DNA of 40,275 nucleotides from positions 832,133 to 872,407 of the forward strand of contig NW_003140812.1 of NCBI RefSeq assembly GCF_000003605.2, given 5' to 3'. The stretch is from Saccoglossus kowalevskii (taxonomy: Eukaryota; Hemichordata; Enteropneusta; Harrimaniidae). The notes below the pieces were generated by a model. It saw only the letters and a list, made by a program, of their open reading frames with translations. It ran no database searches and was not told the DNA's origin. The translations under genes were made by a program, and so were the position numbers. Shown here piece by piece: positions 193-27,875 of this stretch (positions are counted from its first letter, which is position 1; each line of letters starts with the position of its first letter).

Positions 193-620
193 TGATGATA
201 TCAGCTACAATAACACAGTATCAGCGCCTCCTATCGTTAACCTGTATAATAATATACAGCTGTCACCATTGCATGTACAATTTGTACTGGGATAAAGATC
301 CAACGAATGGACACGTGGTTAAAGTAACAGTTATTTTGTATCGTACTCATGTCTGCCCAGCGTACCTGTGTCACGATTAAAACTCAAATAACATGCCATA
401 AATGCTCAATCTCGTTAATATATCGATATAATGTGATGAACTTACCAATGTTCATAATTTATTTAAAACAATTCATGGTCCACTTTCGGTCATTTACTTC
501 ATTCCTGTGCGCGTTAAAAAACACAGTTCTTGTTCTGTGCACGTGAATATATTACTTATTTTGTTTTTTAAAAACCTTCTCCAATAATGGTTGCTGATAC
601 ATTTGTGTTTACACACGGCG
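193..620 (+). repeat. Duplicated block 1, copy A (partner 6907-7266)
   Basis: It pairs with 6907-7266. Both begin with GATATCAGC followed by CACAGTA/CACAGTAACA-type sequence, pass through a CGTACTC-GTC-GCC stretch and AAATGCT near 404/7096, and end with CTTCTCC plus GGTTGCT and a TACA-rich tail (572-620 and 7220-7266). No clear partner was seen in copy C. Indels are not multiples of three, so the block does not look coding. Confidence 0.75.
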
Positions 621-2627
621 CTCGCATAATAGTCTCAATTGCCCACATACTTCTATACAAAATAGACGATAATGCAGATAACAACGTTATGTATGTAACA
701 CCGCATATATAAATTCGTAACATTGTGATATTTTCGACCACCAATTGCATTTCATTCATATCACACTAATATTGTATGTATATCAATCCTCAATCACTAA
801 TAAGTGCAAAAAATAATAGAAAGTATCATATAATGGCTTTAGACTTTAATTATCGGTGATTCATCATATTTTTGTTCGTATGAGAGAGATTGTGTCCGAT
901 TACGTAAACAACTGGTGTATTCGTTCGAATTGTTTTTCCCGACGACTATTTTGCGGTACATTGTATCAAGCATTCACCTGCAAATAACAATATTTTTAGG
1001 ACTATACATGATAGGATCGTACTTAAATAACGGAATAAAAACCACAATAGACTATTGAAAAGTATTTTAGCTTACAACGAATGTTCATTTGAGACTGTTA
1101 AATAAATATTACGAAGTGGATATATCGTTATTAATAATTAAACCAGTTTGCCCTTTATTTAGTTGCATGCTGCTTTTTATGTTATAACCAGTGGAATAAT
1201 CTTGATCAATGTAGCGAATAATAAATTATTTTATCCTTATTTCCGTCTCATGAAATGTGGAATAATTATATTATTGAGTATATTATGGAGTATAATATAT
1301 TCACTTCAACGTATTTAAAATGCCATTCAACCCTAAATGATCTTAAGGAACAGGAACGCTATCCTCTCACAAATAAAGGAATTTTATTGGATCAATTCAT
1401 CGCGGAATTGGCCCGTAGATTAATTCATTTTAGAAGAACGGCTTCCAGAATTAAATCTGTTTGAGCTACCATTACGATATATCAGATTATGATCTAGTTC
1501 ATCATTAGTGTTGACACATCTAATTGGAAATTCATGATACTTTAAATGACCTAAGTGTTTTATTATTAGTATTAAACAACCTAGGGAGTTTCAGTTTATA
1601 GCAATTTATAGAGTCGCTCAATATCTTATACTCTCATCGCCTCTTGGTGTTTTTCCTTAAACGTGATTTCTTCCACCGATTTAAAATCCAACTCGAATAA
1701 TTTGAGATATTTGGTGTCATTCTCATGGTTGTTTCAAATATTTTTGTGGAGCTGTGTAAGTATAGGCTAGCGCGGCATTCGTCATGAGTTCTAATAGTAT
1801 GACACGAGTTTAAAATAAGGTATGACCTCATTTGATAAAATAAATGAAAGGCGATATCATTCTACAAATGACTAATAACATTCTAATAATAATGTCGGGT
1901 CAACTATATACAGACTTAACAGTCCCCGAATAAGAATACTTTTATTGTTGCTCATATTAATGCATAATGCATCAGTTCTATGTGGAAACACGCAACAAAA
2001 ATAATCCTGATGGGTTGCACTGTAGAATTGCTTTGTTACACGGTAACACAGTGAACGCGGACGTCTGTTGTGTTTTATTCAGATCTATTTCAATCCTCTC
2101 CAGTTAAATGTATAGTCTGAGTCAATTCGTTGGTAATTAATTTTGCTAACGACTTACCCGTGGATACAATTCGAATCTCAATTGGGAATAAAAAAAAATT
2201 TCCATTGATGACAATTCACGAACCTTATTTTCTATATTATTACTATTAATTGTTAAGATTGCAAACACATGTATTTTAAAAAGATGAATTACATTTTTTA
2301 TATTTTTAAGTTCATCTAGAATACCATGCCATGCTTTGTTTTAAGTTTCTAGGTTTAAAACCATTATTTAAATTAGTTAAAACAACATTTTAGTCATATC
2401 ACTGGCCCCCATTTGCAGAATACAAAAGTAAAATGACTTTTTCACGTGGACATGTATACATTGACACAGTTACATGCAATTCACATGAACTGCAATAGGA
2501 ATATGAATATTCACACTTATATAAGTATACCAATTAGTTAAGACATAAGTTATTAAGAAATTATGTTAATATGTACAGTACATAGTATCGTATTATGTCA
2601 TTACAAAAAAAATAACAAAGGTGCTAA

Positions 2628-3010
2628 TGTATGATTTTGGAAAGTCGGTCAAGTATACATTTGCAATGCACCAAGCGACAAGAGTCTTAATGTGCTAGTG
2701 TTAATGGGTCTGAGACAAGGACATGTTTACCTTAAGACGAACCAATTTCAGCAATCGTTAACTTTTATTTTCTCATAAACACCTCTATGACGTAGCATTG
2801 AATTGTAACACTTATACTGATTAGTGTTCACCAGAAAACTCAAAAGCAGGCGTGATTATCTAAATGTTTTATTTATTTCAATCAGAGTTAGTCAATCGTC
2901 AACATACGAACATAACACAAAATAAATATCTTTCGAAGGTCGTTTCAATTATGTGTTCCTGGATGCGTTTTAGTGACATGAAATTACGGGTATCTGGAAT
3001 AACTCATTAA
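2628..3010 (+). repeat. Duplicated block 5, copy A
   Basis: It has partners at 12228-12600 (B) and 23655-23990 (C). Shared landmarks are GTCGGT followed by a CATTTGCAATGC/CATTTACAATGC stretch, GACAAGAG, GGACATGTTTA, AACACTTATACTGATT, AATGTTTTATTT, and in A and C a closing GGTCG...AATTACG...ACTCATT segment. This is one of the two best-conserved blocks of the unit. Confidence 0.85.
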
Positions 3011-3576
3011 TCTTCTGGAGATCGATTATTATATATATGTATAAGCGTATATGACTCCCCCTGTGCTGATTGAGAGGAATTTCACAATGCACCACCATAA
3101 ACTTATATATTCCACAGCATTTCCAATGTTATGCCTTCAATTACATCGATTACCATTTCGAATGTGTGTCATACACCATCTTCTTTCGCTTTCTTACCAA
3201 TCTCTGTGGTATTACTTGCAAGGCAAGACAAGACGTAACAGTATATCTACACGATATCTAATCTTCTACAATCCAAGAATACACAATAATATATAACCAA
3301 TGACAAACAATGTTATGACCTGAATGCATAAGGCAGTTATTTACGAATCACTTATCTACAGAAATGTCATATCATTTCGTCGTTTTTTACAGACCCAAAT
3401 GCAATTGGCTTATAAATGCGTGAATTATGTTTGTCATTGGGTCGGGCATTTTACCAAACTACTATATATTTTTGATTTTAGTGTCAAAGAAGTGTTGTTT
3501 AATAATTTATTAATCCATATTAATGTGTACCATTTCATTGACTGTTAGTAATTGTTATCCGATTGTGGTCCACTTA

Positions 3577-3600
3577 CATATATATATATATATTTATATA
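3577..3600. repeat. (TA)n microsatellite
   Basis: A short run of alternating T and A with one T interruption, lying between blocks 5 and 6 of copy A. No partner run is present at the matching place in B or C. Confidence 0.8.
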
Positions 3601-3837
3601 CATTATGTTCTTGCGTAAGGATCTATGGAATTTATTACAATGCACGAATAAGTGTGAATATATGACATGCGCCATGCGCCATGCTTTGAGGTTTCTCTCA
3701 TCCAGAGCTGAAATTAAATTAATTACCACTCTTCCTGGCGGTGTTTCTACACACATTTTTACTATTCACCAAACTGCGTTATTATGTGTTCATTGCTAAT
3801 TTGCTAGCGGTGCACGTGCCAGTCTGCTTTTCTCACA

Positions 3838-4335
3838 TGATAAAAATATAAGACGGAAATCCTTGCTCATTAACGTCTATACGTAAGGTTAACGCTGAAG
3901 TCACGCTGCCGCATCAAGGATTTGCAAAATAGCTTCCTTCCTATAAATTAATGAAAGTTAGAACGGGCTGTTTTATTTGTTAATTGATTGATGGATATGG
4001 GTACGATTGGCAAGTCTTCGTTATAGTAACTGAATGAACTGACATACGATCAGGTCGAGTGACTAATTTATTGTCTTGTAGTTTCATCACTTTTTCATTC
4101 TTATCTACTCTTACACAATATAGCATTCTTAATCTTCAGTTGGCTCCGCATTTTCTAATAATCTAATTAATATGTTCAAAGACTCCAATAAAATCTTTCT
4201 TCCTCTAGCAGTTGACAAGTGTTTAGACAAATTGTTTTGATACATGCGATTTTAACACTTCAGTGCATGTCCAAATTTTCCTACTAGAGTGAACGAAATT
4301 ACATCTCCAATAACTAGTAATTTGACTGTTGTTCG
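3838..4335 (+). repeat. Duplicated block 6, copy A
   Basis: It has partners at 13495-13965 (B) and 24806-25318 (C). The shared run includes AAGACGGAAAT (A and C), a CGCTGC-TCATCAA segment, TTGTT-ATTGATTGA followed by GGATATGG, GTGACTAAT/ATTGACTAAT, TCATC-C-T-TTC, AATATA-CATT-TTA and CAGTTGACA. Identity by eye is about 70% over more than 400 bp with few large gaps, the clearest three-way match in the window. Confidence 0.85.
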
Positions 4336-4394
4336 ATTTGATTAGAGCTTTTAAAATTTGAGCAATTCAACCATTAATGAATCTTACTGCATTG

Positions 4395-4860
4395 AATTCA
4401 ATCAATCAAAGATGTAACATCGCATATTCTTCAAACAACTCTTTTGATGAAGTAAAATGCTATGCCCAACCAACAATATTATATGTGTTTTATCTTTAAA
4501 TATAAGTCAGAGGTATATTCATGGCGTTCGAATATTTTAATAAATGTCATTGACATACTAATGTATAGGATAGGATGTTTAAAAATGATATCGAATATAT
4601 TTATTTGAATTGTATATTGACTGAGAGAAAGTATTACCGTACCTATTTAATATCTTCTCATCGCGAGTAGTACTTCATAAATCAATACAATGCAAACTGT
4701 TCCAATTACATTGGTTTAATAATGTTATGGAATGACTCGCAATCATTTTTTTTCAAGTTACACAGCTAAACATATTTGACACATGTTAATGTGTATGTGA
4801 AATTATGCACATTTATTGTTTGGGTAATCTGCGTGTAATACTAATATATATGGATGAATA
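4395..4860 (+). repeat. Duplicated block 7, copy A
   Basis: It matches 14038-14430 (B), and its first 90 bases match 25380-25470 (C). Landmarks are ATTCAATCAA followed by GATGTAACATCGCATATTC (A and B, identical), CAACAATAT/CAGACAATGTTAT, TTATTTTAATAAAT, ATCTTCTC near 4655/14263, GACACATGTT and TTATGCACATTT. These long identical words make the A/B relation safe. Confidence 0.85.
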
Positions 4861-5030
4861 CTAACTATGAAGACCTATTTGCGATAATGATAAAATACAG
4901 ATAAATAAATTTACTAAACTAGTTCATTGCAGTACACGCCTTGTACACAAACAAGTACGAAAATGCTGCGAACATTATTCAGCTTAGTGCCTAAAATATA
5001 TAGAATTTTAAATAGAATTACATTATCTAT

Positions 5031-5300
5031 TTACAACTAACTGGATATGATGCACATGATTGAATAGATTCGTATAAAACCATATAATCAGGTCAGGTGG
5101 TCTAAATAATTATGTGCATATATACAGAGATTTATTATAGATTCACATTTACTGCTAACTGGATACTGTGCACAACAGACCAATTTAGATACATTATTAG
5201 CTGGTCAAGTTACCACAATGATTGAGTGTTTACCTAATCCACAGATATTCAATTCGCATTTAGTACTAACTGGTAATGTGCACATTATTTACGCACTACT
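5031..5300 (+). repeat. Minisatellite with ~110-bp period, copy A
   Basis: Three degenerate tandem units start near 5031, 5145 and 5255. Each carries CTAACTGGATA (or CTAACTGGTAA) followed within a few bases by GTGCACA or TGCACA. The two complete units also carry a GGTCAGG/GGTCAAG word and AATTATGTG/AATGATTGAG downstream. Copy B holds a shorter version at 14781-14900. The array therefore probably existed before the duplication and changed unit number afterwards. Confidence 0.75.
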
Positions 5301-5342
5301 CACTGGATAACAAATGGTTATTTATTTCATACTCAACACACT

Positions 5343-5440: not shown

Positions 5441-6906
5441 TGCCAGCATCACAAAAGTCTCCACGATGTTTGGCGAATATGCTAACCATTGTGCCACACA
5501 TCCGGAATTATTGTGTATTATATATACATATTTATTTGCATATTTGTCTATTCCATGGCCTATATATATATTTGCATACCGATACAATATTTTTTCTATA
5601 ATTATAGCAAAAATAATATGTGTTACAACTATAATTTTGAAATTCGTACAAGGTAGTCAAATGCGATGATATAAAATGTATACATATATTTCATATGTAA
5701 TTTAGTTTCCAGTATTTATATTGCTGTTCAACGTTCCTTAAGCATTGTGAAATTTGTTCCTGATGGTTCGGAGGCAAAAATGTTAATCATGCTCTTGGTA
5801 TCTTAGAGAAGATATTGATTATAGGCGATGGCTTGAATGAATATTGAAAGATGGTTTTTGTGATAAATGTAACAACTTCATGACAATATCATCTATATTT
5901 TCATCTAGGTTTGATTATATTCGGTAGAATTTTAGGTTATTATATTGTGTATATTGTTTGGCGACCAGGGTTTCCAATGACGCATTGTCATTCTCAATGT
6001 CATACACAGTGTATGAATGCCAGTATTAAACAAAATCTGTCTTTCAGTGACGTCAAAACTGACAAAAGGCTTGCATGTCGCTATCCCCCAATGTCAATGT
6101 CCGCCATATAGTGTAATTGAAACATAAAATCTCATCTTCATGACAAATTTCCTTTCTTTGCACTTCTACCATAATAACGTATGTCAGCTCGATCTGAACA
6201 AAACACCAAACTGCTGCGATACGTTGTCTTGCTACACCTGTAGAATCTTACTATCCAATGGTACAATTGAATAGATAGCAGTATCTGGTCAATAAGCGGC
6301 CCATAATGCCCATAATAATAATTTGGTATACGATTGTGACCAACTCGGCTTCAAGCACTCTAGTGTGTCTGTAATATAAACAAATCATAATAATATAATA
6401 GCAAAAGTTCAATGCCGTTCAAGTTTTGTTAATTTGTCCCATCGACATATTCACATAAACTTTTATTTCCCATTGCGTTGATATGGAAAGTAGACAACCA
6501 ATAAATTGTAAGCGCTTCTTTTATCGCCACAAATCTGTGATGTCGGGCGCAAAACATTCACTAATTCAGCTGAGTCAGAGTAGGTAATACAATGACCATA
6601 AATAACGGTATTATCATTGAACGCGTGTTAGGTAGTTATGCAGTATTTTTCTGCCAACGTGAATAGACGAAATGAGCATATAAATAAATACAATTAATAG
6701 CATTATCACTCGACTATTAAATATCCATATTTAGCATGCCGCACATTCGAAGGTAACTACTTATATTAGGTACGAAATTTAGTTCTTCTGTGCCACTGTG
6801 ATTGTCAGAAAATTTGGTGGCGTTGTATTGGTATACAAATTGTTCCTTTTCAAGCAGAATGTATACGCCCCAGACATATTCTTATAAAAGCATAAACGCT
6901 ACGTCA
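5441..6906. other. Unassigned A+T-rich spacer between copies A and B
   Basis: About 1.5 kb with no long open frame and no repeat that I can place. The matching interval of copy B (14.9-17.85 kb) is about twice as long and I could not align the two. The A/B junction must fall in here or just before 6907. A weak word match around 6545-6575 with 14640-14665 (CAAAACATTCACTAATTCA versus AAAACATTCACTTATTCA) is suggestive only. Confidence 0.5.
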
Positions 6907-8149
6907 CGATATCAGCCACAGTAACACTCCATAGGCTCCGCATATCGTGTAGATATAACATATATCATAGTAATAATGCATGCCTGATCAGATCTAACAA
7001 ATGAAAACGTGTTTAGAATAACAATTATCATATACCGTACTCCTGTCAGCCAAGCCCATCTGTGTCGTGAATAAAACTCGCATAGTAAGGCACAAATGCT
7101 ATATCTCGTATTATGATTTATGATCAAGTTGTGCGAGATTTACCAATTTACGTGCGCTAAAGACAAAATACGGTGCTTTTTTACGTGCGGTTGAATTGGT
7201 CGACTCATTTTGTACCGAGAAATCTTCTCCATTAAAGGTTGCTAACATATTTACATTTACACATGTACTTTGTATATCAGGAATTCGACTATCAATGCAC
7301 GCCGTGATTACGCGGATAAATTCTGTAATGAATTTGACGATATTGCCTCTTTCATAATTCATAGTTCAGCTGTGACAGGACATTTTCCGTTTAGCTGTTA
7401 TATTTCCAGAAATGGGGCTAGCTTAGAAATTAAAATCTGGGTTCATATGATCGACCCAGTTTATTTATGAAATGTCATGTACCACGTTGAGGAAATGATA
7501 AGTTTTCGGTGACCAAAAGATGACGACAATGCATTTTTATTATAAATCACTAAGTGTTTTGTTTCACAGCACCGTGTAGCAGAATATTTCATTATATTTA
7601 TTGGAATCTACAACAAACTAATAAATTAAGTTTATCAATTAACAAAAGCGCCGTATCTGACAAGTGTTCCCATGGTAACGATGATATGGGAATATTTGTG
7701 ACTTCACGTATAAATAGGCCATCAAAAAACTGCGCCTGGTTTTATCACGATTTTAACCTTAAACACAATATACCATAACAAATAACATATTATTTTTGGC
7801 TTGATATCGCAGTGGAGAAACATAAACAGTTTCAACTTTTATTACATTAATTATTTTGTGGCACATATCATGCAAATTCGCAAATCAAAAGAACTATCTC
7901 GACTATCTATGAAATAGTGTACACAAATGACGTACTTACCCATGGATTGTATATTACAAAATATCTCAAATGCAAATATCACTATCAATATGTACGCAAG
8001 TTTTCTTTATTTCTAGTTCACGCAGCGTTTTCAACATTAAAATTGATGGAATAACCTTGACCACTGTAATGAAAAATAAATTGTTTTATCCGTACGTCCG
8101 TCTCATGCAACGCTAATATGTATGGAGTATAGGTAGAGAGATATTTCTT

Positions 8150-8160
8150 GGGGGTGGGGG
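8150..8160 (+). repeat. G-run in duplicated block 2
   Basis: GGGGG-T-GGGGG follows GATATTTCTT. The C copy has GAAATATTTGCTGGGGGG at 19671-19688, so a G-run is shared by B and C. It has two runs only, so it is not a convincing intramolecular G-quadruplex by itself. Confidence 0.8.
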
Positions 8161-9176
8161 TGTTATTATATTCCCGGAAATTGCACACTCGAGCAGAAAA
8201 TGATTAGGATATAAAGTCTGATTTTTAACTTCAAATATTCAACCTATTGTACGTAATTCAACCCTAATTGGTTTAAATATTCATTCTGTTCATATAAACA
8301 CGCCCCTTCCCAAATAAAAGGTTTTTATAGGATTAATTTATAGCAGAATAGGCAGATTTTAACGTTTTAGAAACGGCTTTCTAGATTGTATCTGATTGAA
8401 CGACCAACATATCATGGTTTAGTTCATCATCAATGTTGACACATAAAATTGGAGCTCTGTGATATTTTAAATAAAAGTTTTTTAATGTTAAGGTTTAAAA
8501 CATAGAGGCTATCGGGTTAAGGCCAACAGGATATAAAATAATTTATAAAGGCAATTAATGTATTCGTATCCTATCGACTTCGTACTGTTTTAATTCAGTG
8601 CCGCCTTGCCTTGTATTGTTTTGCCTTAAATATGACGCGATTCACCTGTTAATCTGTTGTGGTGAGCTAGCTGAACAAATATACTTATCTCGTCGTGCCT
8701 TATAATTCATATATTCAGCGCTATTTCGACGTAGAACGACATGACGTTGTATTAAGATATGACTTGATTTTATTAACTGAATGACGATTTTGATTAACAG
8801 CGTTTTCCTTTCGGTTTACTTCGTGGATAAATACGCAATTGGGTCTTATAAATGCAAAATCAATACATCACTAATTGAAACTTCAGTGTTAATATAATCA
8901 CGTCTATTTTAAAACAACTTGTAGAGTTAACATGCGAACTTCAATACGTAATAACGATGTTTGATGATCCGATTAAAACAATATTCAAACTGAAATTAAA
9001 ATCAGTCAAGCATTTAGAAACAGAATGAACTGTTTCCGAATCAGAACACTGCTCCAATTGATAGATGACCATAAAAGTACTTCGATGACATCAGTTCTCA
9101 GTGGAAACACCCACGATAGTAAAGACTGCACTGTAAATCTTGGGAGAACTTCCACACCGTTTTAATTGAAAGCACA

Positions 9177-9204
9177 CTATTGCAATTAAAACTATTGCAA
9201 TTAA
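9177..9204 (+). repeat. 15-bp tandem duplication
   Basis: CTATTGCAATTAA is repeated with a 15-bp period. It sits at the right-hand limit of recognisable A/B similarity (about 9140), where the B-specific (or A-deleted) sequence begins. Confidence 0.8.
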
Positions 9205-12130
9205 TGTGTACTATATCATAAAACAACTTTATGTTCTAGCAAAACAGTAGTGTTTTTAGAATTTTTAGAAAAGTGAGAGTTATTAAAACACTTGTTGATG
9301 AATATTAAGCACATTGTGAACATTAGATTCATTTTCTTCATAGCTATTCTTTTTGGCCGGGACTCAATGTTGAATCCATTCAATATGGTAATTACCACAT
9401 ACTTGTGCAAATTTGTGTATAATTTAAACTTGATCCTCTAAGTTTCTAATAATACATAACCATTAAACTGTTAGTTAGAAATTTCATTAATACAATAAAT
9501 ATAATATGAAAACAAATATTGAACAATAATTTAGTTTGCTACTTCTTTGCAAACATTTTGAGATACATTTCGTGAACGACCGTTTTCACGATGAACACTA
9601 TTTTATGTTGCTTGTTCAAGTAAGTGGTAACTTTTGTCGTGCGTACGCTTATCAAACGATTGAATTATACTATCGGGAGAGTGTGGACATATAGAATACC
9701 CGTTAAAGAAGCAGCAACAACTTGCACCAAATGATGCATTTTAGATTGTCTGTGGAAAGAAGGGAACTGGAAGTTATCCTAAATAAGCCTGAAGGTATGA
9801 TGATATTGTTACTCCATTACGACACGTGTGGAAAGTTTAATTGATTGAGCAAGCATCGGTACTTGTGTAGTGCATTGGTATTTGCAGCGGTCTGCATTCA
9901 TTTCATTATACACGGGTTGAACTCAAACTCATGCATGCATTTACAGAAACAGAGAATTTCATAGAGCATAAGTTCATTTTCGACATTCCCAAGATACATG
10001 ATCTGAGTTACAACAAAAATTCAAAGAAATGTTAGACAGAAAATTGCAGTTCAATTTGTGTAAATGGTGTTTGATCATATTTTTGTTTTCACATTACATA
10101 TGCGTTACTTTTTATTTTATTATTATTTTACATCACATATTTCTGATTCAAATACCACATTGCTTGAAACAATAATGATAATTAATTAAACATTACTCGC
10201 TGGATTTTTGTAATATTATACTTTTCAGCTGACAAGATGATAAGGCTAATATTGGGAAATAATTGTGTCATAGTAATATAGGTTAATATAGTTTTCTCTT
10301 CATCAATGCCAGAATAACTATGATTAGATAAACATAGCTTTAAAATACCACACTTTAAAAGTGGGGAAACTAAACAATCAAACCATTAGACGGATAGACA
10401 TGTGAAAGATGAATAAAATGTACATATGCAAATTCGAGGTTTGAGTGAGTATAGGATTGTAATAAAGTAAATTTTCTTTGAAATTATTGATTTTCTGGTG
10501 GAAATACTTTTCTAAATATGTATCTAGTGAGATGACTTTTTCAAAGAGTTACACTTGTCCTCGTTTGTGACACTTTTCTACGTGCCATGATCATAAACAC
10601 TTTACAAAATCTGTGTCTAGTAAACACTGTCTATATACATGTTCCAGGGGGAAACACTTTACAAAATGTGTTTTTTGCATGTAGGTTTTCTTGTAAATGT
10701 ATCTAGAAATTAAAATATAAGCCACATAGACACGTATACGCAGAGCTAGATACGTAATCAAATAAAGAACGACCGTTAACTAATTGGGACATCAGTAACC
10801 CAACAGTATCGCTTTCACCAGTATATATGCTTAATCTCTCGATATTCTTAATTACCCTGTAATGAAATGTCAAGATTTCCGATAGTCATTTTATTCTGGC
10901 CGCCCACAGATGATAAGACTGAAACATGTAATACTGTAATTTGAATGACTGGAAAGCTGGTAAAAATAATGAGGTTGTTTACAAAATCAGAATTTTAGAA
11001 AGAATTCAGTGATTTATAAAAGAGACAAAAACGGCTGTGGTTATCAACGTGTTCTGTCAATGTGGCAGTATTCAAGTGCCTGATCTTTCAAAGTTCATCG
11101 CATCTCCCGGTAGGTACTACATACAATTATAATATCTGAAAATATAGGTTAAAGTGACTGCAGACAGTTTCTGTAGCTGGCAAATATTGAATACGTAGCT
11201 GACAGCGCATGATAGCAAACGAGAGCGATATTTTAGCTGACGTTTTTTTACCTTTTGAAAAGGTGTACAATATTTAATTGGTTAGCAATATATCGGAATA
11301 CAGGCCCTCTTACATCGTACGCTTCGGCAAATATGCTTTATGATTATTTTTGCTCGAGTTTTTATTGACCAGGAAGTCAGGCCAAATGTCAAACAGAGAC
11401 AATAACTCAAGTAAAATAACACGAGTACAATATTTTGTTAGTTCCTGGAGCCATAGGCTGCAGGGTAAGGCGTATTATTTTAATTCCTATATATGACACA
11501 TGATTTCTAAAAGCAATCCGAATGAAAATAGATTTTTTAAGCTATGCAATGCCAGTTTTAAAGAAGTGGTCCTTATCATCTCATGTTATTCTTTATTGCA
11601 ACATTCACCGCAGGACGAATCAGAATTATGTATCTCACCCAAGCCATCTTGTATGTATCAAATTACGTTACATGAAAACTATCTATAAAGGTACTCTGAT
11701 GTTGCATTTCATATTTGTTAATGGAGTCCTCTATGTATTATTTTCAATCTTGCATTGTGGTAACGTCTTTATCATGTTGATTGTACATTGACGTGACCAA
11801 TTATAAACATACATCATTTCCATTCACAGTCATCTACGTTAATTACTTGGGCTTACACTTTTGTAACGTCACATCAAAGTACAAAAACAATATCACAATG
11901 ACCAAATCTTTAATTAAATCACGATTTGTCTGCTACTCAATATTTATCTTGCATATATGTCTTGACGCCTGCATGATTTTTTGTAAGTTGAAATAAAATT
12001 TCACAACAGATCGTGAGCGCACATCATATTTACTGTTACTGAAAAAATATACACCCCATATATATATAACTGTAAATGTAAGCGACATGGAATGAAAATT
12101 GTGATACAGTTTTTGTTGTTGACGCTAATA
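9205..12130. other. Segment of copy B without a recognisable partner in A
   Basis: About 2.9 kb of A+T-rich DNA lying between blocks 4 and 5 of copy B. Copy A has only about 0.6 kb at the same place. Copy C has about 3.5 kb, but I could not align it with B. No open frame has protein-like features. A loose repeat at 10500-10680 is the only internal structure I can point to. Confidence 0.55.
10500..10680 (+). repeat. Degenerate short repeat
   Basis: Three loose copies of a word of the form GAAACACTTTACAAAATGTG start near 10500, 10596 and 10651. The first two are followed by TGTCTAGTAAA or TATCTAGTGAG. The identical core AAACACTTTACAAAAT occurs in the last two. Irregular spacing suggests a decayed array. 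Confidence 0.5.
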
Positions 12131-12227
12131 CCAATTAAGCTAAGACGGAAGTTATATGAAATTAATACTAATATGTGTTATCGGAGTTAATATATGAATT
12201 CAGAGCAGCAATCACATATGCTGATGT

Positions 12228-12600
12228 GCCCTTTGGAAAAGTCGGTTAAACATACATTTACAATGCGTCAAACGACAAGAGCCGTAATGTGCAGGTGTTA
12301 AATTCGTCTGCGACATGGACATGTTTATCATTAGATGAACTAATTTCCGCAATCATCAACTTGTTATTTTCACCCAACACATCACCGATGTTACATTTGA
12401 TTGCAACACTCCTGCTTATTGGTGTTTATCGAAAGAAAACTCAGGTGTGAGTGACCTAAATGTTTTATTTGTTCCAATTAGTGCCAGGCTATTGTCGACA
12501 TACACAAAATAAATATTTTTCGAATGAATTACGTATCACTGAATGAGATTTAGTTATATACAATTTCGAGTACTTTGATTAAATAGGGATTGTTCATATA
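12228..12600 (+). repeat. Duplicated block 5, copy B
   Basis: Partner of 2628-3010 and 23655-23990. It opens with TTGGAAAAGTCGGTTAAACA and contains CGACAAGAG, GGACATGTTTA, TTATTGGTGTTTATCG and TAAATGTTTTATTTG, then the CACAAAATAAATAT segment shared with A. It is slightly shorter than A through small scattered gaps. Confidence 0.85.
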
Positions 12601-13009
12601 AATCATAATAAATGTGCTGATTGAGAGTAAAACACAATAAGATAAGAACTTTCCGTTTTCGACATTGTGAAATATAATTCGGAAATTTATAATATAAATA
12701 ATTCATAACGAAATGTATTTCCTATGCACCCATAGATAATTTTCATAATTACCGATTACAAAAGAATATTGCAAAAAAAGATAATTTGCTATATTTTCTA
12801 TATTTTTGCCTTTTATTTGTCTTGTCTCATGACTGAAAGTAGCTGAATGAAATTACAAACTATATAGTTTGTTCAACAACTTCACATATAAATCTTTATC
12901 GCAGTGTTGTAACTTCACAGCACATCATCGTCCACTGATATTTATCCACCCTTACCTGGAAATCTTGAATCTGAATTCATATTGCTTCTATCAACAAACA
13001 TCCTAATTC

Positions 13010-13318
13010 ATGACAAACGACAATTGCTTACCAGTACTAGTGTGGAATTTATTGTTGTTATTTTGTTCGGCATTTCGCGAAAGAACTATATATTTGTTTT
13101 GGCTTGAAATACCTCTGTCGCTTGTGTACTGTTCTTCTTATTGTGCAACACTGCACTATATTTTGGGATTTGCAAATAAACCGATCACGTGCTTCTTATT
13201 TTCCAACACTTATGGGTTCTGGACGTACATTTTGATGGAAAAGTATATTATAACTTACATGCCGTTTTCATTATCTCAAATTTCTGAAACTCGCTGCTAC
13301 GCAGAACGATTCATATAA
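13010..13318 (+). other. 102-codon ATG open frame, probably not a gene
   Basis: The longest ATG-started open frame within copy B. The predicted product is rich in Leu, Ile, Phe, Tyr and Cys with several hydrophobic stretches (about residues 10-22 and 38-55). That is what chance translation of A+T-rich DNA gives. I see no domain, and no matching frame in the corresponding intervals of copies A (3.1-3.8 kb) or C (24.0-24.8 kb). Confidence 0.15.
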
Positions 13319-14900: not shown

Positions 14901-15310
14901 AAGAGATTTGGATAAAATGATAATGCCAAGAGGCTAGTTATGTGCATCAAATGTGTTGGCAAATGGATCTATTCGGAGAAAATGTTAACGTATCCAAACA
15001 TGGTTCATCAGCTTGCCAGCTGCAAGCCGATCATCAATGCTTGCAGTTATATTTTACATTTGAAATCAGTATACGCGGAATGCAATGATATATACAACTG
15101 TACATTGTTCCAAATAAAACAATCTACAATCAGCCGTAGTCAAGTCAGGCCAAGGCAAATAACTGATTACACCCTGTTTTGTGAATCTGACACGTTCCAT
15201 AGAGTAGTGCAATTTGTCACGTACTTGATTGTGTGATACGTTATAAATAAAAAATCTGATTGTGTGAACAAGAACATTGGCACTGTTCAATCCCAATGGA
15301 GCAACTCGCA

Positions 15311-16093
15311 TGTTTCATCAATATCCACAATAATCACAGACCAAAAGCAACGCAATGAATCATCTAGTACCCAGTGTTTCACAAACATCAAAACTAATTC
15401 ACAGAAACAAAATCATGAACACTCCTGTACCCCAGCGTTCCACCGATATCCAAACTAATTTACAGAATAAGGAAAATGTCATAAACCATGTATTACCCCA
15501 GTGTTTCACCAATATTCACACTTAATTCCCAGAAGAAGAAAGTCATGAACCATCTAATATTCCCAGTGTTTCACCAATATTCACACCTAATTTCCAAAAG
15601 AAAGAAAAAGTCATTAACTACCTGTTAGCTCCCAGTGTTACATCAATATCCAGATTAATTCACAGAAGAAAAACAGTCACGAACCACCTAGTAGCTCCAG
15701 TGTTACACCAATATTCACATCTAATTCCCAGAAGAAAGAAAAGGCATTAACTACCTATTAGCTCCCAGCGTTACACCAATATCCAGACTAATTCACAGAA
15801 GAACAAGTCATGAACCATCGAGTACACCAGTATTTCACAAATATCGACACTTAATTCACTGCAGAAAAAAAATCATGAACCACCTAATACCCCCAGTGTT
15901 TCACCAATAACGTCACAATTTCACATAAGAAAAAAAATCTTGAACCATATAGTACCCCCAGAATTTCACCAATATCCACACTAATTCACATAAGAAAAAA
16001 GTAATGAACCATGTAGTACCTCTCAGTATTTCACCAATATCCACACTTTAAGAAGGAAAAAGCCATGAAGCATTTAGTACCCCAGTTATCGGC
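15311..16093 (+). repeat. 65-bp minisatellite, about 12 units
   Basis: Tandem units of 61-69 bp start (at the ATATCCACA-type word) near 15321, 15387, 15448, 15515, 15580, 15649, 15714, 15782, 15843, 15909, 15974 and 16039. The consensus has four landmarks: ATATCCACACTAATTCACAG, AGAA plus an A-run, GTCATGAACCA, and AGTACCCCCAGTGTTTCACC. The two units with AGCTCCCAG (15580 and 15714) alternate with units carrying ATCCAGA, hinting at higher-order duplication of two units. The array is absent from the matching place in copy C (26.4-26.8 kb), so it expanded, or was lost, after the B/C duplication. Confidence 0.95.
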
Positions 16094-16370
16094 TATCACA
16101 TTAAACATAGCAACACACAAATGCTTAACACGAGGTATACGCGTTATACGTTTCACAAAAAGCTATTCCGATAACAACGATATCTGCGACCCAGATAACG
16201 TAATTTCCCTAAAATGTAGATTCGTATCTACTTTAGTGTTTGTTCGGTATCCATGCAAGTATACATCGACGCAATCTTTTAAAGAAGCAATTACTTCCTG
16301 TCAGAGCGTAAACGAATGTGACAGTTTGGAATGCCATATAATACATTTATAACTTTTAGGACTTCAGTAA
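16065..16370 (+). repeat. Duplicated block 9, copy B (partner 26800-27110)
   Basis: It begins within the last minisatellite unit and matches copy C. Shared landmarks are TAGAT(C)GTATCTACTTTA versus TAGATCAACAGACTTCTTTA, GGTATCC-TG-A-GTATACATC-ACG, TTCTTTTAA/TCTTTTAAAG, GAGCAATTAC/AAGCAATTAC, TAAACGAATGTG and CATAACTTTTA/TATAACTTTTA. An open frame of 95 codons from 16065 is not conserved in C, where the matching frame is broken. Confidence 0.8.
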
Positions 16371-16669
16371 TAATTGCAATCACAGACATTATTTCGAATT
16401 GGAATGTGGCTTCGTGAAAACATTATTTTCTTGCAATCGTAAAAAATGTTTTTTTTTCTTCAAAAGTTTCTAATCGTGAGACATGTATCTGTAGTATTCT
16501 ATTAGTGGATCTCCACGTGTGTTGACTGTGTTTGTATACACGTACCTTGATGCAATTTAACTTTCACAAAAAAACTAAAATGTAAAAGGTTCGTGGGCAC
16601 TTGGGAGTGATTTTTTTTTTTTGCTTTTTATTATCCAAACAGTCTTGGCTATAGGCTGTTAAAATTTCG

Positions 16670-17410
16670 TAAATTGTGAATAGTGGAACATACTCAAAAA
16701 ACGATTTTAAAATATATATAACAGGTGCAAACATTCTCTCTTTTGAATGCTAAGCAAGATTTAGCAAGGCTGTACTTAAATAATAAAAAAGAAACATGGT
16801 GAAAAAAGAAATGACAGGATCTCCATATTATGCACTCTATTTAACATTTAACAAAACGATAATACATTAAAATTTGAAACTGTAACAGCCATTTATTTAT
16901 GAGCATTAGCAAACTTCTTACTGAGTGAATTGTTGTGCAAATTAGCAATTATCTCAGCTTCTTTTTAGTGCACATCTCAGAAAAATAGCTCCTAGACGCT
17001 TTGAACTGTTGTACAATCGTACAGACAACCAGCCTGGGTGTTAATTTATGCATAAACTTGAAGTAGTGAAATTTGGGCTGCTGCCCTGCAAAATTGACAA
17101 CTGGTAGACAGTTTTCATGACGGCACTTTTTTCATAGTAAACGGATGTACCCATAAACCAATTTTGACAGTAAACAGAAGCATGGTTCAGGAGCTAATTT
17201 TTCTTAAATCACTTTTGACCAAAAAAGCACATTTTCGTGTATATTTCAAACTACAGTGTCCATAATTTTTTTTAAAATTCATACAATAAGCTTTCCGAAA
17301 ATATATAGTTTTGTGGACAAGAGAGGTCATCTTGGTTTTCTAATTAACTAATTAAAATACCTCTCAGGTAAACTGCATCTCTACCTTAATAATCTTATTA
17401 TTTATTATTG
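16670..17410. mobile_element. Insertion in copy B, candidate decayed mobile element
   Basis: Copies B and C align up to CTTGGCTATAGGCTGTTAAA (16644-16663; C has CTTGATAGAGCTGTATAACG) and again from about 17410-17460, where C continues at about 27430-27470. The extra DNA of about 740 bp in B has no counterpart in C. It holds long A and T runs and no long open frame. I found no clear terminal inverted repeats, target-site duplication or poly(A) tail. Insertion is inferred from the gap; a deletion in C is equally possible. Confidence 0.45.
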
Positions 17411-17459
17411 ACGCCGTATTCGAGATTGTATGCAGTTTGCACGCAGAGACAAGATATCT

Positions 17460-17850
17460 AGAACAATAATGCTGTTTTTTGTAATACCTAATTGCGAAAC
17501 ATAGTATATACAGATTTCTTGTGATACACAGTTCGATTTACTAAGTTTGTTGACAAGTTTCATACGTTGATGGAACCTGAACGTGGGGGTGTATTCGCAG
17601 ATAAAGATCTATTCAGGCTCATGAGATTTGTATTAATACAGGGATGTGTTAGCTTTAGTTAAATCGCCACATATTGCAAACTCATGAACATACTAATACT
17701 AAACCTTGTAATTTCCACCAACGAAATGAAGCGAACATTTTGTTATTACCTAACCATTGTGATTCATATATTAAGTGAAAAAATATTTACAAGGTAATTA
17801 AACAAAATATAGAATTTTTGGCCACATAAGTTTCATATAATGGCATGTCC
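17460..17850 (+). repeat. Duplicated block 10, copy B (partner 27470-27875)
   Basis: Landmarks shared with C are GAAACATAGTA-ATAC, TTTCTTGTGATACACAGTT versus TTTCTTGTGATACGCAGTTT, GATTTACTAAGTTT/GATTTATTAAGTTT, AAAGAT, AAATC-CCAC, ATACTAAACCTTGTAATTTC versus ATACAAGCCTTATAATTTCG, and GACATATGAGGTTTATGGTA (C) versus GCCACATAAGTTTCATATAA (B). This is the last block I can align before the right edge of the unit. Confidence 0.8.
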
Positions 17851-17880: not shown

Positions 17881-17913
17881 AAAAAAGTATTTTCTTAACG
17901 CTTATTGCAATAG

Positions 17914-19440: not shown

Positions 19441-20099
19441 ACGATAGTGAAGGTTACCTAAATACCTAAACTACAGTCATCAATTGCAAAGTATTGCAAA
19501 CTCACAGACAGGAAATTCATGCTCAATTGAGACTTTTAAATTTATCTCACGAAGTACATATATCACCATTAATATGTAACCCAGTTTGCTCTTTATATAG
19601 TAATGAAAAATATATGATTCTGTCCGTAACCATTTTGCTAAAATCCATGTCTCTGAATAGAGTAGTAGCAGAGAAATATTTGCTGGGGGGTATATAACTT
19701 ACGAAAATTTGGAAAATTGGAAATTGAGAATTTACGAGATGAAAAGTGGGATGGTTCCATCGAATATAATTTGACTCATTCTGAAAACACTGAATTATCA
19801 GGTATATTTAGATTTCTTTAATTATGATAAATGACTTCTATTTGATTAGGGTTTGGATCATTATGAATGTTGACATACTATTTGGAACTTCGTGATATTT
19901 TGAATGAACTAAGTGTTTTTTAATAGTAATTATCAACCCTAGCGGATGTCAAATATGGTCCAAAACAATATATAACAATTTACAAAGGTAATCAATTTGT
20001 GCATATCCTATCTACTGCGTGCGGTTTTAATTATGTGTCATGTGCTATACCGTTGCCAAGTAATACACTCGGACTCAACTGATTTGAGACATTTAGTAT

Positions 20100-22779
20100 A
20101 TTGAGACTATTCAAAAATTCATTTACTTTTTTCACAACTTTACCAATCAGACTTAACTGTTTTATAACACAGTTATTGTTGCGGCAGTTGTTACATGACC
20201 CTTCGAGTAGTTGGATGACGTCAATTATAAATGAAAACCCTCAGTGTAAAGATCACTGGCAGATCAGACTATTGAGTTGTCTCGTAACACGGATATTATG
20301 CGGGGATGTGTGTTTCCTTTTGATAAGATCTATTTTAATAATTATAAATTCCGTTGAATTTTATTGGACAGGTAAAATTAGTAGTAAAATTCAGTCGATT
20401 TGTAAATGGCTAAATCCGGTGATTTACTGAACGTTGACGTTTTTGCCAAAACGTCGACCAAATTAGCTTGTATGATATTACGCAATGGCCACTAATAACA
20501 AGTATATGCCTCTGAAATCCGGGGAAATACGTCTGCTTACGTAACCACATAATACGTCCCGAACCCCACTTGAATTATTTGAGAATAAAGTGTAATTTTC
20601 ATTGATGAACAATCTCGATATATTTCTCGTGATTCAAGTCTAATGAAATTCAGTATTTTGTTGCAAGCATGCATTTTCAGTATGCATACATTCATTTTTG
20701 ATTGATTTTATTCATAACACGTTCATCCAGAAAACTTGGCTATTTCAAATTTATGGCACGAAACCTTTAATTTAAAGCGGAGGGGTCGTCGTACGCTAAT
20801 ACGCAAAGCTACCGGGTATACGCTTATTAGTGAACAACATGATATGGCCGTTTGCTATAGCGCAGATGATGTTAGGAAACTGCACTTTCAATAGAATACT
20901 GACGCTCATTTGCTTTTGTGTTAACGCACATAAGATGACCTGTGAGATATAAAATAATATCAATTTCATAAAAAAAACACATATTTTGCGGTGAATTAAA
21001 TGCCATCAGGCTGTATAAATAATAATAATATAAACGAATAAGTCGGAACATGCATTAGCTGTCGTTGTTAAAATAACATTTTATTTGTCAATTTTGACAC
21101 AGGTTTTTTGCTGGACAAACAATATATTAGTAACCTTGTCTTTATCCTATATATAACTGTGACTACACCGGGTCTCTCGTCTTATGGCATTTTCTCGTCA
21201 TAAAAACTCAACCCACACAAAACAGGGCGATGTGATCTGCTACACTCATACACGGAAACTACGATTGAAACTGACACTAACAAATTTGGCGAAAAGTTTG
21301 ATATATTGAATTGTTCTCTTATTACCGCAATATGTTGACGAGCATCAAAAGAAAAACAGATGGAAAGGACCATTAAACCTAACTACAGAATTAAATGAGA
21401 GTGCAATCGCGGAAAGTGAAATGTATTATGACTCAACTCCACGTCTCTGTTGGAATAGACGGTACTGTATTGACGAAGATGTATATGCATATGGGGCGTA
21501 ACCATTTCGTTCAAACAACTGAACACTGTGCCTGTCTGACAACCGTTCAAACAGTATGTCCCACTAAGGAATTTTCTGTAATAAATTTTCAGTGTAGCGA
21601 GTGTTTTATTTACGAAATACGTTGTCCTCTTATTCAAGTCAATGCAAATTCCACATATTGTTCACTAATTATTGTAAATCAGAAAAAGGTCACCTAATCA
21701 AGTACTAACCGATTACAGAACATGTACCCAAACACGTAGTGTACGGCACTAAAAAAAACAAAAACTGCCAAATTGTGTGTATGACATGTTCCATGTAAAT
21801 ATTTTTTTTCGTAAACGATTATCAAACTATAATAAATGTGTCAAACAACATATTTTGTATGCTGTATAATTTTTATCATAGATTAACCCCTCTTATTAGA
21901 ATGACAAATAAAATCTCCAGCCATAAACAGTTCACGCTTATAAATATTGAATTGCCTTGTAATTCACCCTGACATCAACAATGACATCTATCTTTAAAAC
22001 CCATTACCAGGCACCAGCCCATCTAACCATCATCATAAAAGGTCGAAGTGAATACAATAAATGTTTAACCAGTTTATATAGTACATATAACACCTGTGAT
22101 TTATGTAGGATATCTTTTATAGACATCTTTACTAAATGTCATGATAATAAAACAAAATAAATTATTAGGTCGTCCCATTGAACCCTGTCATTTTATATGC
22201 GTCAACATCCACATTGCTAATTCGAATAATAGCCACGCACATTAGCAAGGTTATACAAGCTATTCTTCTTTGGTGATAATCAGCCACTTTTTGTTTGTAA
22301 TAATGAAACTTAATTTTGTACATTACCTACAATAACATACGAATACCTATAATGCTGAGCTTAATGGACGCCGACACATCATATACACGTTATGTAGTGT
22401 ATTTTAATGACCAGTGATCCTGACTTGTTATTTTTCTGTCTTTATATTTCATGAAAAATGTACTCATCATCGTTATCAGTTTAAAGGTCTTACATTTTAC
22501 TCTATATTTGAGGTGTACTTTTTAGCATTATCCTCCTGCATATGTGATTACATTTATGAAGTTGACAATCTGATACATTGACCCATGCTATGTGTACTAC
22601 AACACAAATTATTTGTTTAAACAAACGTGGTACAATCCTAAACACTTTTTGAAAGGTGTATTTTTTGTAGATATTCCCGTTTGTGTGACTAATGTAAGAC
22701 TCCGAATAAAACAAGCAGTTTGAAAAATGAACATCTAAGACGATTGTTAGCAATGAACTTAATCAAATCAAGTTACACT
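20100..22779. other. Unaligned interior of copy C
   Basis: A+T-rich DNA between blocks 3 and 5 with no confident partner in A or B. Open frames here (for example 100 codons from 21395, rich in Cys and Thr) show no domain and are overlapped by comparable frames on the other strand. I see nothing else in it. Confidence 0.5.
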
Positions 22780-23065
22780 AGTTCAAGAAAATACTCCCGT
22801 CTCCTTCGCTTCTGTACTGCTAAAATCGCGCTCATAGTCGGTGTCAAATATATATACCGCGCTACCCCATCTTACTTATCATAGAAGTACATGCTGTGTT
22901 AAATAAACCGGTCATAATATAAGGTTATCACGAGAGTATGCATGAAGACAGTAAAGCTGGAGTATCGACCGACGCGCGCGACGTACTTTCACCACGGGAA
23001 TGCCAAAATCTAAAATGTTTAAAGCAGCAAACTTCTCTGTGTTTAGTTCGGTCAAACTCTGGTGG
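22780..23065. other. CpG-rich patch with a TATA-like run
   Basis: A short interval with clustered CpG (ATCGCGCTC at 22825, ACCGCGCTACCCC near 22855, ATCGACCGACGCGCGCGACG at 22964-22983) in an otherwise A+T-rich setting. A TATATATA run ends just before the CCGCGC at 22857. On the minus strand, ATGGCTGCCACC (around 23062-23073) has a good eukaryotic start context but its frame stops after six codons. It could be a decayed promoter or first exon, or part of a mobile element. I cannot tell which. Confidence 0.3.
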
Positions 23066-23654
23066 CAGCCATGTTTGTTTTTATTATTAGAGGACAATTA
23101 TTTGGAATTCGCATTTCTTAATATGGTAGGATGAAAATACCCCGTAAAATACCGCAAAATTACGGCACGCTGTAACTTATGTATTAATCAATGTTGAATG
23201 AGTCACAAACATACACGAAAACTGACAAAATTCATGAGTATTCACAGATTATGTATTTTGTGCAAGTAGAATCTGGTATATGTATTTGTGGACAAAATAT
23301 ATGACACTTAATCAAAAGTAGGATGATTTCGCAAGGTTTTCTAGAGCTCACCAACCCAACATAGTCACTTGCATGAGTCTATATGATCAATGGATACTGT
23401 CAATGTTTTGACAGTGGATTCATATAAGGCTGCAGATTGGTCTATTCGCATCACAATTTATATTTAACATTTTGCTGAAGGCTAACGCTGTCGACGAAAG
23501 TCATTCCCGTCAGTGGAGTACCGCAGTTGCACGGCATGTTTGCCAATGCACAATTCTTGTATAACAAGATAAGAAGATAAGCAACAATATATAGTATATA
23601 ATTTCGCGTTCATAATATCTATAGTTTATAATTCATCCAGAACTGGTCAAATGT

Positions 23655-23990
23655 GATAATGTTTGTTTCAGAAAGTTGGTTATACATACATTTAGATTGC
23701 AGCAAATAACAACAAGGGGTGGTAATGAGTTTGAAACATGAACACAACTTTAAGGCGAACCATTTTTCCCATCAACGCACTTTATTGATGTTACAATTGT
23801 TTTCAACACTTATACTGATTGGTGTTAACCGTAAAACACATACACAGGTGTTTGTGATATCAATGTTTTATTTGTTTCACAAAAACTGCCTAACACCAAA
23901 TACAAATATCTATCGTAGGTCGCTTTATTTAGGTGCCACTGAATGCGTGTTAGTGATATAGAATTACGAATGTTTGAAATTACTCATTTT
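23655..23990 (+). repeat. Duplicated block 5, copy C
   Basis: Partner of 2628-3010 and 12228-12600. Opening AAAGTTGGTTATACATACAT, then AAGGCGAACCA (A has AAGACGAACCA), CAACACTTATACTGATTGGT, AATGTTTTATTTGTTTCA and GAATGCGTGTTAGTGATATA (A has GGATGCGTTTTAGTGACATG) make the relation to A especially clear at the right end. Confidence 0.85.
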
Positions 23991-24045
23991 TTATTATGCC
24001 AAAATATGCATATATTTTTGTTGATAACCATTGTTTTACACATCC

Positions 24046-24046
<1 letters not shown>

Positions 24047-24127
<81 letters not shown>

Positions 24128-24136
24128 GTTATTATT
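24047..24136. repeat. (ATT)30 microsatellite
   Basis: Thirty ATT triplets with one A-to-G change near 24128. It lies just right of block 5 in copy C. Copy A at the matching place has only GATTATTATATATA (3025-3038), so the array probably grew from a short seed in C alone. It creates long poly-Leu and poly-Ile frames that are not genes. Confidence 0.97.
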
Positions 24137-24805
24137 GAACACGTCACATATTTTGTAATTTCATCCAGCCAATTTCAATCATATTTCAAGTGGAATTGAA
24201 ATGCACAATTTATCGAGAATATAACAAATGTGTTAATATTTACGTGTAATCAATAATTATGAAAAGTATTATTGGCATGCATAATGAGTACATTTCGATA
24301 TGAAGTATAAATAATATATTTCTGAATTCACTTTTAATTTTTCTTCAAAAACCGAAAGAATTTCATAATGCCGAAAAGAAACAATTGTTCAACCACAAGA
24401 AAGTTACGAATACATCTGTTATTTGTTCAATGGAATTTTCAATGTGTAATATTGCACTGTCTGTTGGTATGTGTGGTTAAACTAAAACCCATTTGTGATT
24501 CTTATTTTTACTTTTGTTCTAGTGTGGGGTTCCAAGTGTGAATATATTTTATGCTAATGTATTAACAACTGAAAGAATACACGTTACCTAAAACACAGTC
24601 TTCTTTTCACTATCTCAATTGTGCTAAAATCAATACATAACATCCAACATGCTTTTGAGCTAAGAATTATCTCATTTAGCGCTAACAGTAATTTCCGCAA
24701 CTGTAATCTAATGAGCACTCTGTCGCGCCATAGTGTTCAATACGTCGTTTCACCCTTTGCTTCAAAACTAAATAGTAACTGCAGTATATTCGTCTCTTAT
24801 TCTTA

Positions 24806-25318
24806 CATGACGCACATTGCAAGACGGAAATAATTTCTCGTCAACGTCTATAATCGAAATACTGTTAAAGTTAATGACATTCTGCCTCATCAACAATTTG
24901 CCAAATAGCTCTCCGTCTGAACTTATGGGAGTGGGAACAGATTATTCAGTTTGTTCATTGATTGACGGATATGGATATCGATTGCAAGGCTTTGATAAAA
25001 GTCACCGAATAAAGAGACACATCAACCTGACGATTGACTAATTCATTGCATTGTTGTTTCATCACCTCTTCATCCTTATCTTCCCTCTACTCAATATAAC
25101 ATTCTTAATTTCTTCATCAGTTGCCATTTGCTACATTCTCCTACGTGTAATTGAAATGTCTGGCCGCTCTAATCAAATTGTTCTTCTTCTCTCAGTTGAC
25201 ACGTGTTCTTAATCTCAACACCACAAACTGTTTGATATACACGCCAGTTGAAGACACTCCAAGGTACGTCTATCTTCTTTTATAGCAAATTAAGTTACAT
25301 CTGCAATAACTGCATAGG
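24806..25318 (+). repeat. Duplicated block 6, copy C
   Basis: Partner of 3838-4335 and 13495-13965. It starts ACATGACGCACATTGCAAGA (A: ACATGATAAAAATATAAGAC), then CAACGTCTATA, GTTAAAGTTAATGACA, TTTGTTCATTGATTGACGGA, GACGATTGACTAAT, ATAACATTCTTAAT (A: ATAGCATTCTTAAT) and CAGTTGACA. Confidence 0.85.
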
Positions 25319-27469
25319 AATTATAAATTCCCCGGCAATTCAACTATTCATATACCCATTGAAATTATATATTGCATCTCAATCAATCAAACATTGTGTT
25401 TTCGTCAGATAGTTTCTTTAATTGGGTGAGGTAACAGTTGTTGCTCAACCGACAATGTGTTTTTCATCTGTAATTTTACATATTCAAGTCTCATATTAAT
25501 GTAAGCGTTTGATTTCTTTGATAATTGGCATTGACGCGATGTCCATTCACCAGTTTCTACATTTACGGTGCAGTTAACCCGACCTATCATTGGAATGACG
25601 AAATTGCATTTCGAAATGTACAGTCTCTCACGTTTGAGCACTCGTTAATCTGTAAGTGTTATTATGCATATTGATTGCGTAATTATTATATAATACACAA
25701 TTTAAATATTAATAACACATAGAAATGAGATATTATAGAACTGACGCATAGTAGAGCACGCAAAGTAAGTGCTGCACTACAAGCCTACAAATGCTGCGTG
25801 ACGTGACTGTTTATTTTACAATATCCACAAGCTAGGTTATTTTAAGTGAAGTTCGTTATGTTAATTGTATAGTTTGTTTTATTGCGTTTATTCAGTTCAA
25901 ATTACACTTATAGATTAATACAGTCATCTGGTACAAGACGTGTACACTTATCACAATACAGGATAGGTAGTGGATAATATAATCATGTCATCACTTGTGA
26001 GCATCGTTAAAATCCCGTAATGTTGTTTGTTTCAGTAACTGCTGTTCGGTTTTCCAGTAATTTAGTGGATAATGATTATTCGCTGGTAACAGAAAAAAAG
26101 TGCATAAATGCATTGTTAATCACCTTGTACAGGTGGTACGATAGTTCGTTTCCATCATTTGAAATATGTATGTACAGAACGCATTGACACAAATAATATA
26201 GTCGATGTTGTGAATCCCAGATCAATAATTCATTCTAAATTGATATTTGTTTGTCTGTTGTTGTATATAAGGTCAGATTCCCATGTCTATCAACAATATG
26301 TCCTGACAAGTTTGACAATTAATGCATTTAACACATTTTGAATTTGCAAAGCGGCTGTTTTATTTAAATGCACGTTATTGAATGCAATATTCCATGCAGT
26401 ACAGTGGTATAAAAACGACAAAAAATAATCAAGCAAAATGACCAGCTACGTCCTGTTACACGGAAAATACACCAAAGATGGAGTAGGGTTATTTGTTGAG
26501 TATCATTTATGTAATATTTATTAAATCATAAGCTCTACAGAAAATTAAAGACACTTCATCGGATAATCTGTTAAATCTGTGAATACAATTTGTGATTGTC
26601 CCTGTATGCAAATATGACCCTTAAAACACCTGTGCCGCACGAACACACATATAACAATTTTGATATTAGTTTTTGCTAACAAACCAGCTGGAAATGTGTA
26701 TGTAATAAACATAACACCAAATTCGTATCCGATAATATCAAATCTATTACCCTCGTGACATATTTTCCATATGTTCCTCGCCAAACGTTAGAAATATATG
26801 AAAATGCACTTGTTTAACATTTCCAAAAACATGAAACACGAACGCGTTGCCTGTATGCCTGATAGGAAACATGTCGCACACTTGTCAGTCACAACACCGA
26901 TATACTACAACCAAGATAGCTTATTTTCTCTCAAAAGTAGATCAACAGACTTCTTTAGCTGTTTGGTATCCCTGGATGTATACATCAACGAATTCTTTTA
27001 ACGAGCAATTACCTACCCGCGGAGACTAAACGAATGTGTCATTTTGAGAAGTCGTAAAGTACAATCATAACTTTTATGGCTCCAGTAAAATCGTGAAAAT
27101 AAGAACTATATACAACATTATCCCTAAAATTATTTTGAATTGAAATATGAGTAACATTTATGATTCGTGACAATAAAAAACGGAAAATACTCACAATTGT
27201 ATGAATAATGATATTTCAAAAGTACCTACTCGTGAGAAGCGGATTTACTATCAAATTAGATCTTCATAAGTGTTGTTTGTACATGTATAGATACATACTG
27301 ATACAATGCTACTTACACGTAAACTAAAATTAAAATGTAAAGCGAAGGACGGGTGATTAAAATATTTTTTTAATAACAATTCTTGATAGAGCTGTATAAC
27401 GTTTTAATCATACACAGCTTTTAAGGTGGTCTACACAATGTATGCGCAGACGCACGCTGTTAGGGAGGT

Positions 27470-27875
27470 ATGCTGTTATTCAGGTTACTAAGTGATGAAG
27501 AAACATAGTACATACCATTTTCTTGTGATACGCAGTTTGATTTATTAAGTTTTCCCTCAGGTGGTGTTCGCGCTAAAGATACATGAGTTCCAAGTGTTGT
27601 CCGGACTAATATATTTATAGAAACTGCATCTATGTTTATTGTCTCATTCCGTACATTCCTACAAATGTATTCAGGCAAATTGACATCGTATTAAATCTCC
27701 ACGCATTACGAACTGATACACTTGCGTATAATACAAGCCTTATAATTTCGTGTATATATTAGTTCTACCAAAGAAGTTGAAAAAATATATTATTAAACAT
27801 TTCCTATAATATTATTTATATTTTATGAATATGCAAAACAAATAACTGACATATGAGGTTTATGGTATAATAAAG
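27470..27875 (+). repeat. Duplicated block 10, copy C
   Basis: Partner of 17460-17850; shared landmarks are given there. After about 27875 no alignment with the region right of copy B is visible, which fixes the right edge of the duplicated unit to within roughly 50 bp in both copies. Confidence 0.8.

Follow-up and report, generated by a model that had tools for sequence, protein, structure and literature searches.

What kind of DNA is repeated three times, head to tail, in a stretch of the Saccoglossus kowalevskii genome that gives no coding signal, and how did the repetition arise? The window analysed here is a stretch of 40,275 nucleotides, bases 832,133-872,407 of a 1.41-Mb scaffold (NW_003140812.1) in an assembly of 572 Mb and 4,830 contigs. 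It has a GC content of 33% and a CpG observed/expected ratio of 1.0, and lies between two runs of N, of which the left one has 5,291 bases and the right one 6,647. With a probability of roughly 0.77, we regard the array in this window as an old tandem segmental duplication, gene-free as far as could be detected, that has decayed by substitution, indels and the insertion of repeats.

Three collinear copies in direct orientation

The initial annotation had described three collinear head-to-tail copies, A, B and C, of a non-coding unit of about 10 kb. The window was aligned to itself with blastn (word size 6, scores +1/-1, match threshold E ≤ 1e-3); before matches were counted, the minisatellite, the triplet arrays and one repeat together with its inverted relative were masked. 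The masked window gave 28 matches, 26 of them direct and two inverted, and the inverted pair look like dispersed repeats. Among 20 Markov-1 shuffles, 19 gave no match at this threshold and one gave a single match. This excess of direct matches confirms the three copies. The best match pairs 2527-4899 with 12128-14488 (E = 5e-123), and the second and third strongest listed pair 13444-14191 with 24797-25520 (E = 4e-70) and 3822-4554 with 24792-25535 (E = 2e-64). With rows printed at E ≤ 1, corresponding places of two copies are joined by 21 of the 25 direct rows at E ≤ 1e-3, 12 of the 21 reaching E ≤ 1e-10; the other four are the pairs 4996/5120, 5314/32991, 7796/14625 and 33066/33699. A reversed-window control, run unmasked, returned 32 rows at E ≤ 0.1. 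Seven of the 15 listed reach E ≤ 1e-3, and all seven are simple or mirror-symmetric stretches paired with themselves.

The direct matches are ordered, as expected from blocks that share the same order and strand. At E ≤ 1e-3 their offsets are 6.65-9.76 kb between A and B, 10.0-11.4 kb between B and C and 18.4-21.0 kb between A and C, in agreement with the predicted 6.7-9.7, 10.0-11.6 and 18.4-21 kb. Nine blocks, b1-b9, were defined, and their profiles recovered each expected copy (Table 1). Copy A carries b1-b7, B carries b1-b9 and C, which spans at least 8.3 kb, carries b2-b9. Most blocks are therefore shared by all copies, as had been proposed, but at the sensitivity used pairwise tests detected neither b8 nor b9 in A, and no b1 in C. 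Similarly, the copies are real but do not follow an even 10-kb spacing, since b1 lies 6.7 kb apart in A and B and b2 lies 11.6 kb apart in B and C. Direct orientation and a common block order are features of a tandem segmental duplication, and both are observed here.

Table 1. Copies, blocks and inserts of the array, in window coordinates
Feature	Position	Strand	Basis or remark
Copy A	193..5284	+	self-alignment and block profiles
Copy A, b1-b3	b1 191-618; b2 1031-1266; b3 1362-1624	+	
Copy A, b4-b7	b4 1862-1999; b5 2521-3041; b6 3815-4579; b7 4722-4901	+	
Copy A, tail (short, repeated)	to 5284	+	
Copy B	6901..17717	+	self-alignment and block profiles
Copy B, b1-b4	b1 6901-7268; b2 7886-8124; b3 8302-8603; b4 8972-9119	+	
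Dispersed repeat, B between b4 and b5	9321..10675 (approximate ends)	+	genome DNA search
Copy B, b5-b7	b5 12122-12618; b6 13436-14226; b7 14317-14489	+	
Dispersed repeat of ~230 bp, B between b5 and b6	12664..12892	+	
65-bp minisatellite, 12 copies, B only	15311..16083	+	
Copy B, b8-b9	b8 16167-16600; b9 17460-17717	+	
Probable repeat, B between b8 and b9	16936..17395		one other copy, inverted, in the right flank
Copy C	19462..27753	+	self-alignment and block profiles
Copy C, b2-b4	b2 19462-19707; b3 19832-20039; b4 20099-20249	+	
Copy C, b5-b7	b5 23561-24010; b6 24788-25540; b7 25588-25719	+	
ATT triplet array, copy C	24047..24136	+	
Relative of the 230-bp repeat, copy C	24132..24358	-	
Copy C, b8-b9	b8 26886-27348; b9 27461-27753	+	

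Divergence, inserts and spacers

Identity between copies is 60-76% in the blast matches and 45-71% across whole aligned blocks. In b5 and b6 together (1,109 ungapped columns), the three-way identities are nearly equal (AB 0.679, AC 0.653, BC 0.653), and the corrected divergence is about 0.47 substitutions per site under an HKY star model. Taken by itself, b5 is more similar between A and B (0.705) than between the other pairs (0.640 and 0.633). Small indels amount to about 0.07 per mismatch. Segmental duplications are usually defined at over 90% identity; this array, at about 66% in its longest blocks, lacks the 90% or more of a recent duplication and is older. It resembles the general class of ancient intrachromosomal tandem segmental duplications, which are likewise multi-kilobase, direct and collinear and carry copy-specific repeat insertions. 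Local satellite and minisatellite arrays are also head to tail, and a genuine 65-bp minisatellite lies inside copy B, but the array differs from them in its unit of several kb, its three clear copies and its lack of homogenisation. An identity of ~66% is below the level of usual segmental duplication annotation, and the locus shows that an old tandem duplication with no detectable gene can still be recognised at this identity within one window. Otherwise the array looks like ordinary genome turnover.

The insertions invoked to explain the shifting offsets were found in several cases, as dispersed repeats, the minisatellite and the ATT array, and they account for several of the shifts, not all. 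The dispersed repeat between b4 and b5 of copy B has at least 84 matches in the genome including itself (326 candidates, 40 scored), and it has a relative in inverted orientation at about 30622-31790. It is 72-79% identical to the 19 best relatives listed and 81% or more in shorter rows. These identities exceed those between the array copies, which would fit a later arrival of the repeat. Besides itself, the ~230-bp repeat between b5 and b6 of B matches the genome over 190 bp or more in at least 39 places (40 of 485 candidates scored). Its relative in copy C is in the opposite orientation and is therefore probably an independent insertion. The b8-b9 gap, which holds a probable repeat in B, is only about 110 bp in C. 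The b4-b5 spacer is 3.3 kb in C (20249-23561) versus 0.5 kb in A, and that of C is largely unexplained by inserts. The spacers at 620-1030, 2000-2520 and 3045-3815 in A are, like this one, not filled by an identified insert.

Origin of the array

In the duplication that we favour, at least 5-8 kb of intergenic or intronic host DNA would have been duplicated head to tail to give three or more copies. Unequal crossing-over, in rounds that followed one another closely, is the probable mechanism. Substitutions would have lowered the identity of the longest aligned blocks to its present level, small indels would have built up to some 0.07 per mismatch, and the copies would have been split into islands, presumably without function, by larger insertions and deletions, including the dispersed repeats, the minisatellite and the triplet array. 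Collinear matches far above shuffles, the near-equal three-way identity, inserts confined to one copy, the negative codon test and, at limited sensitivity, core queries that matched this locus only speak for this duplication. The small-indel simulation, the unfilled spacers, the clustering of invariant columns and the copies missed in the genome search speak against it. The evidence is best accounted for by copied intergenic or intronic DNA; of the origins suggested initially, non-coding RNA loci found no positive support and a mobile element is disfavoured.

Alternatively, the blocks might be copies of non-coding DNA with a function, for example enhancers or the exons of tandem lncRNAs, that selection kept while the spacers changed, and they might serve the receptor genes that lie on both sides of the array. 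Islands of ~66% identity amid little detectable similarity are consistent with such elements. Copies simulated with small indels only do not reproduce these islands, since at least 0.95 of their length remained alignable in 8 of 8 runs. When 3% or 6% long indels were included, coverage was 0.37-0.97 in 16 runs; long-indel decay suffices for the observed islands, and long insertions that could account for them are seen in the array. Invariant columns are clustered in b5 and b6 together (P = 0.0005) and less clearly in b6 alone (P = 0.052; variance over 20-column windows, permutation), which could reflect constraint or local misalignment. The proportion of invariant sites is 0.525, versus 0.521 under a homogeneous model, in a test that is powerless here: a model with 30% of sites frozen fits almost equally well, and z ranges only from 0.23 to -0.79 for frozen fractions of 0 to 0.3. 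No known structured RNA was recognised, as no Rfam family reached its gathering score and ARAGORN reported no tRNA. In consensus folds of two blocks the covariation terms were weak (-1.31 and -0.43 kcal/mol), and covariation drawn from three sequences says little. Selected functional elements are an unlikely but possible explanation of the blocks. A slightly less probable version of this idea is that at least three non-coding regulatory or RNA units lie between the receptor paralogues, with blocks such as b5 and b6 under selection and the spacers turned over.

The description of the unit as non-coding is upheld by both the codon test and the Pfam scans. None of the 21 block pairs passed the codon-substitution test: 54/200 to 198/200 column shuffles reached the observed score, whereas none of 200 shuffles did so in any of three control comparisons of the flanking receptor paralogues; the blocks thus lack the codon-type substitution pattern of a protein gene family. 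The Pfam input comprised 124 stop-free pieces of at least 30 residues, each sharing 75 bases or more with a block. Searched as four joined strings, 123 pieces matched no family at E ≤ 1; the remaining piece (window 3-377, through an AAC array) gave matches only below the curated cut-offs, and ten further frames gave nothing above the Pfam cut-off. The right-hand receptor has no match in the window below E = 0.94. Among the indels, 29 of 114 are divisible by three. A protein-gene reading is not supported by the codon test, the Pfam results or the comparison with the right-hand receptor. Although duplicated genes occur nearby (the receptors and, judged by eye, a TMEM45-like pair), it is very improbable that the array is a tandem protein-gene family that decayed to pseudogenes or has short exons that went unnoticed.

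Genome DNA searches with 3822-4899, 193-2480 and 24785-25720 matched this locus only. These searches are insensitive, as known copies at 64-69% identity were missed: C by 3822-4899, B and C by 193-2480, and A by 24785-25720. The results for 12128-14488 were filled by a repeat. Repeat-bearing stretches returned at least 84 and at least 47 genome matches, so that dispersed copies were found for two inserts and, by a search of low sensitivity, none for the blocks. It is highly unlikely that a long mobile element landed here repeatedly, each time in one orientation, and left the array as its remnants. The window does contain dispersed repeats, and relatives at 64-69% identity could have escaped the genome search. 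Yet the three core queries matched a single locus while the repeats matched many, a single b1 piece stood well above shuffles in the 131,773 flank bases scanned with the nine block profiles, and a head-to-tail triplicate is a better fit to tandem duplication. The insensitivity of the genome search to an old element and the column clustering slightly lower the odds of a duplication of host DNA.

The flanks and the neighbourhood

The profiles of the nine blocks were also used to look for further copies in the flanks, as the initial annotation had proposed, and they revealed one clear piece of b1 on the left and no full further copy. The b1 piece (140 bp at -7237..-7098) scores 29.6 bits, versus a best score of 4.3 in 100 flank shuffles. 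The 1.8 kb between it and an assembly gap yielded none of b2-b4, and neither A 620-2100 nor B 7270-9120 matched -9500..-5291 (127/200 and 198/200 shuffles reached the score). The piece is either the remnant of a fourth copy, which is only possible, or isolated. A b8-like piece at -8456..-8400 was rejected, as its 6.9 bits fall within 100 shuffles (best 8.1).

On the right, b1, b2-b3 and b5 of A and B gave negative pairwise tests in 27,755-40,275. Two profiles matched in the expected order and strand, b6 over 34 bp at 34070-34103 (+, 8.9 bits) and b8 over 61 bp at 37503-37563 (+, 10.1 bits), with 0/100 shuffles reaching either score; the other seven of the nine had no match beyond 100 shuffles right of 27.75 kb. 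In the right flank, beyond the assembly gap, 56474-56570 matches b3 of C (E = 0.016, offset -36.6 kb, 0/100 shuffles) and 60614-60683 matches the end of b5 of C (E = 0.006, offset -36.7 kb, 7/100 shuffles). The stretch 23900-24044 of b5 of C, picked after the match had been seen, gave 0/100 shuffles. Copies A and B match neither of these two places, and no profile reaches E = 0.2 beyond the right gap. The faint right-hand matches are possible traces of older copies and were not counted as copies.

Paralogous rhodopsin-family receptors lie on either side of the array, at 47864-48913 on the right and -20098..-19159 on the left. The right receptor is one open frame, and its nearest solved structure is galanin receptor 2. 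The left match is split into three pieces in differing reading frames, and it may be a pseudogene, contain short introns or be affected by assembly errors. A weak match to the right receptor at 53780-53965 in the right flank (E = 0.015) contains stops and is perhaps a decayed third paralogue. In the left flank, open frames at -76754..-65404 and -53788..-53366 resemble, by eye, RIG-I-like helicase and CARD-like domains. A long open frame at -30406..-29456 is built from a short repeated peptide and is probably a tandem DNA repeat. Within the window, a short sequence recurs at about 33.0, 33.7 and 34.4 kb (33002-34471, the last at E = 0.036) and has a relative at 5314-5437.
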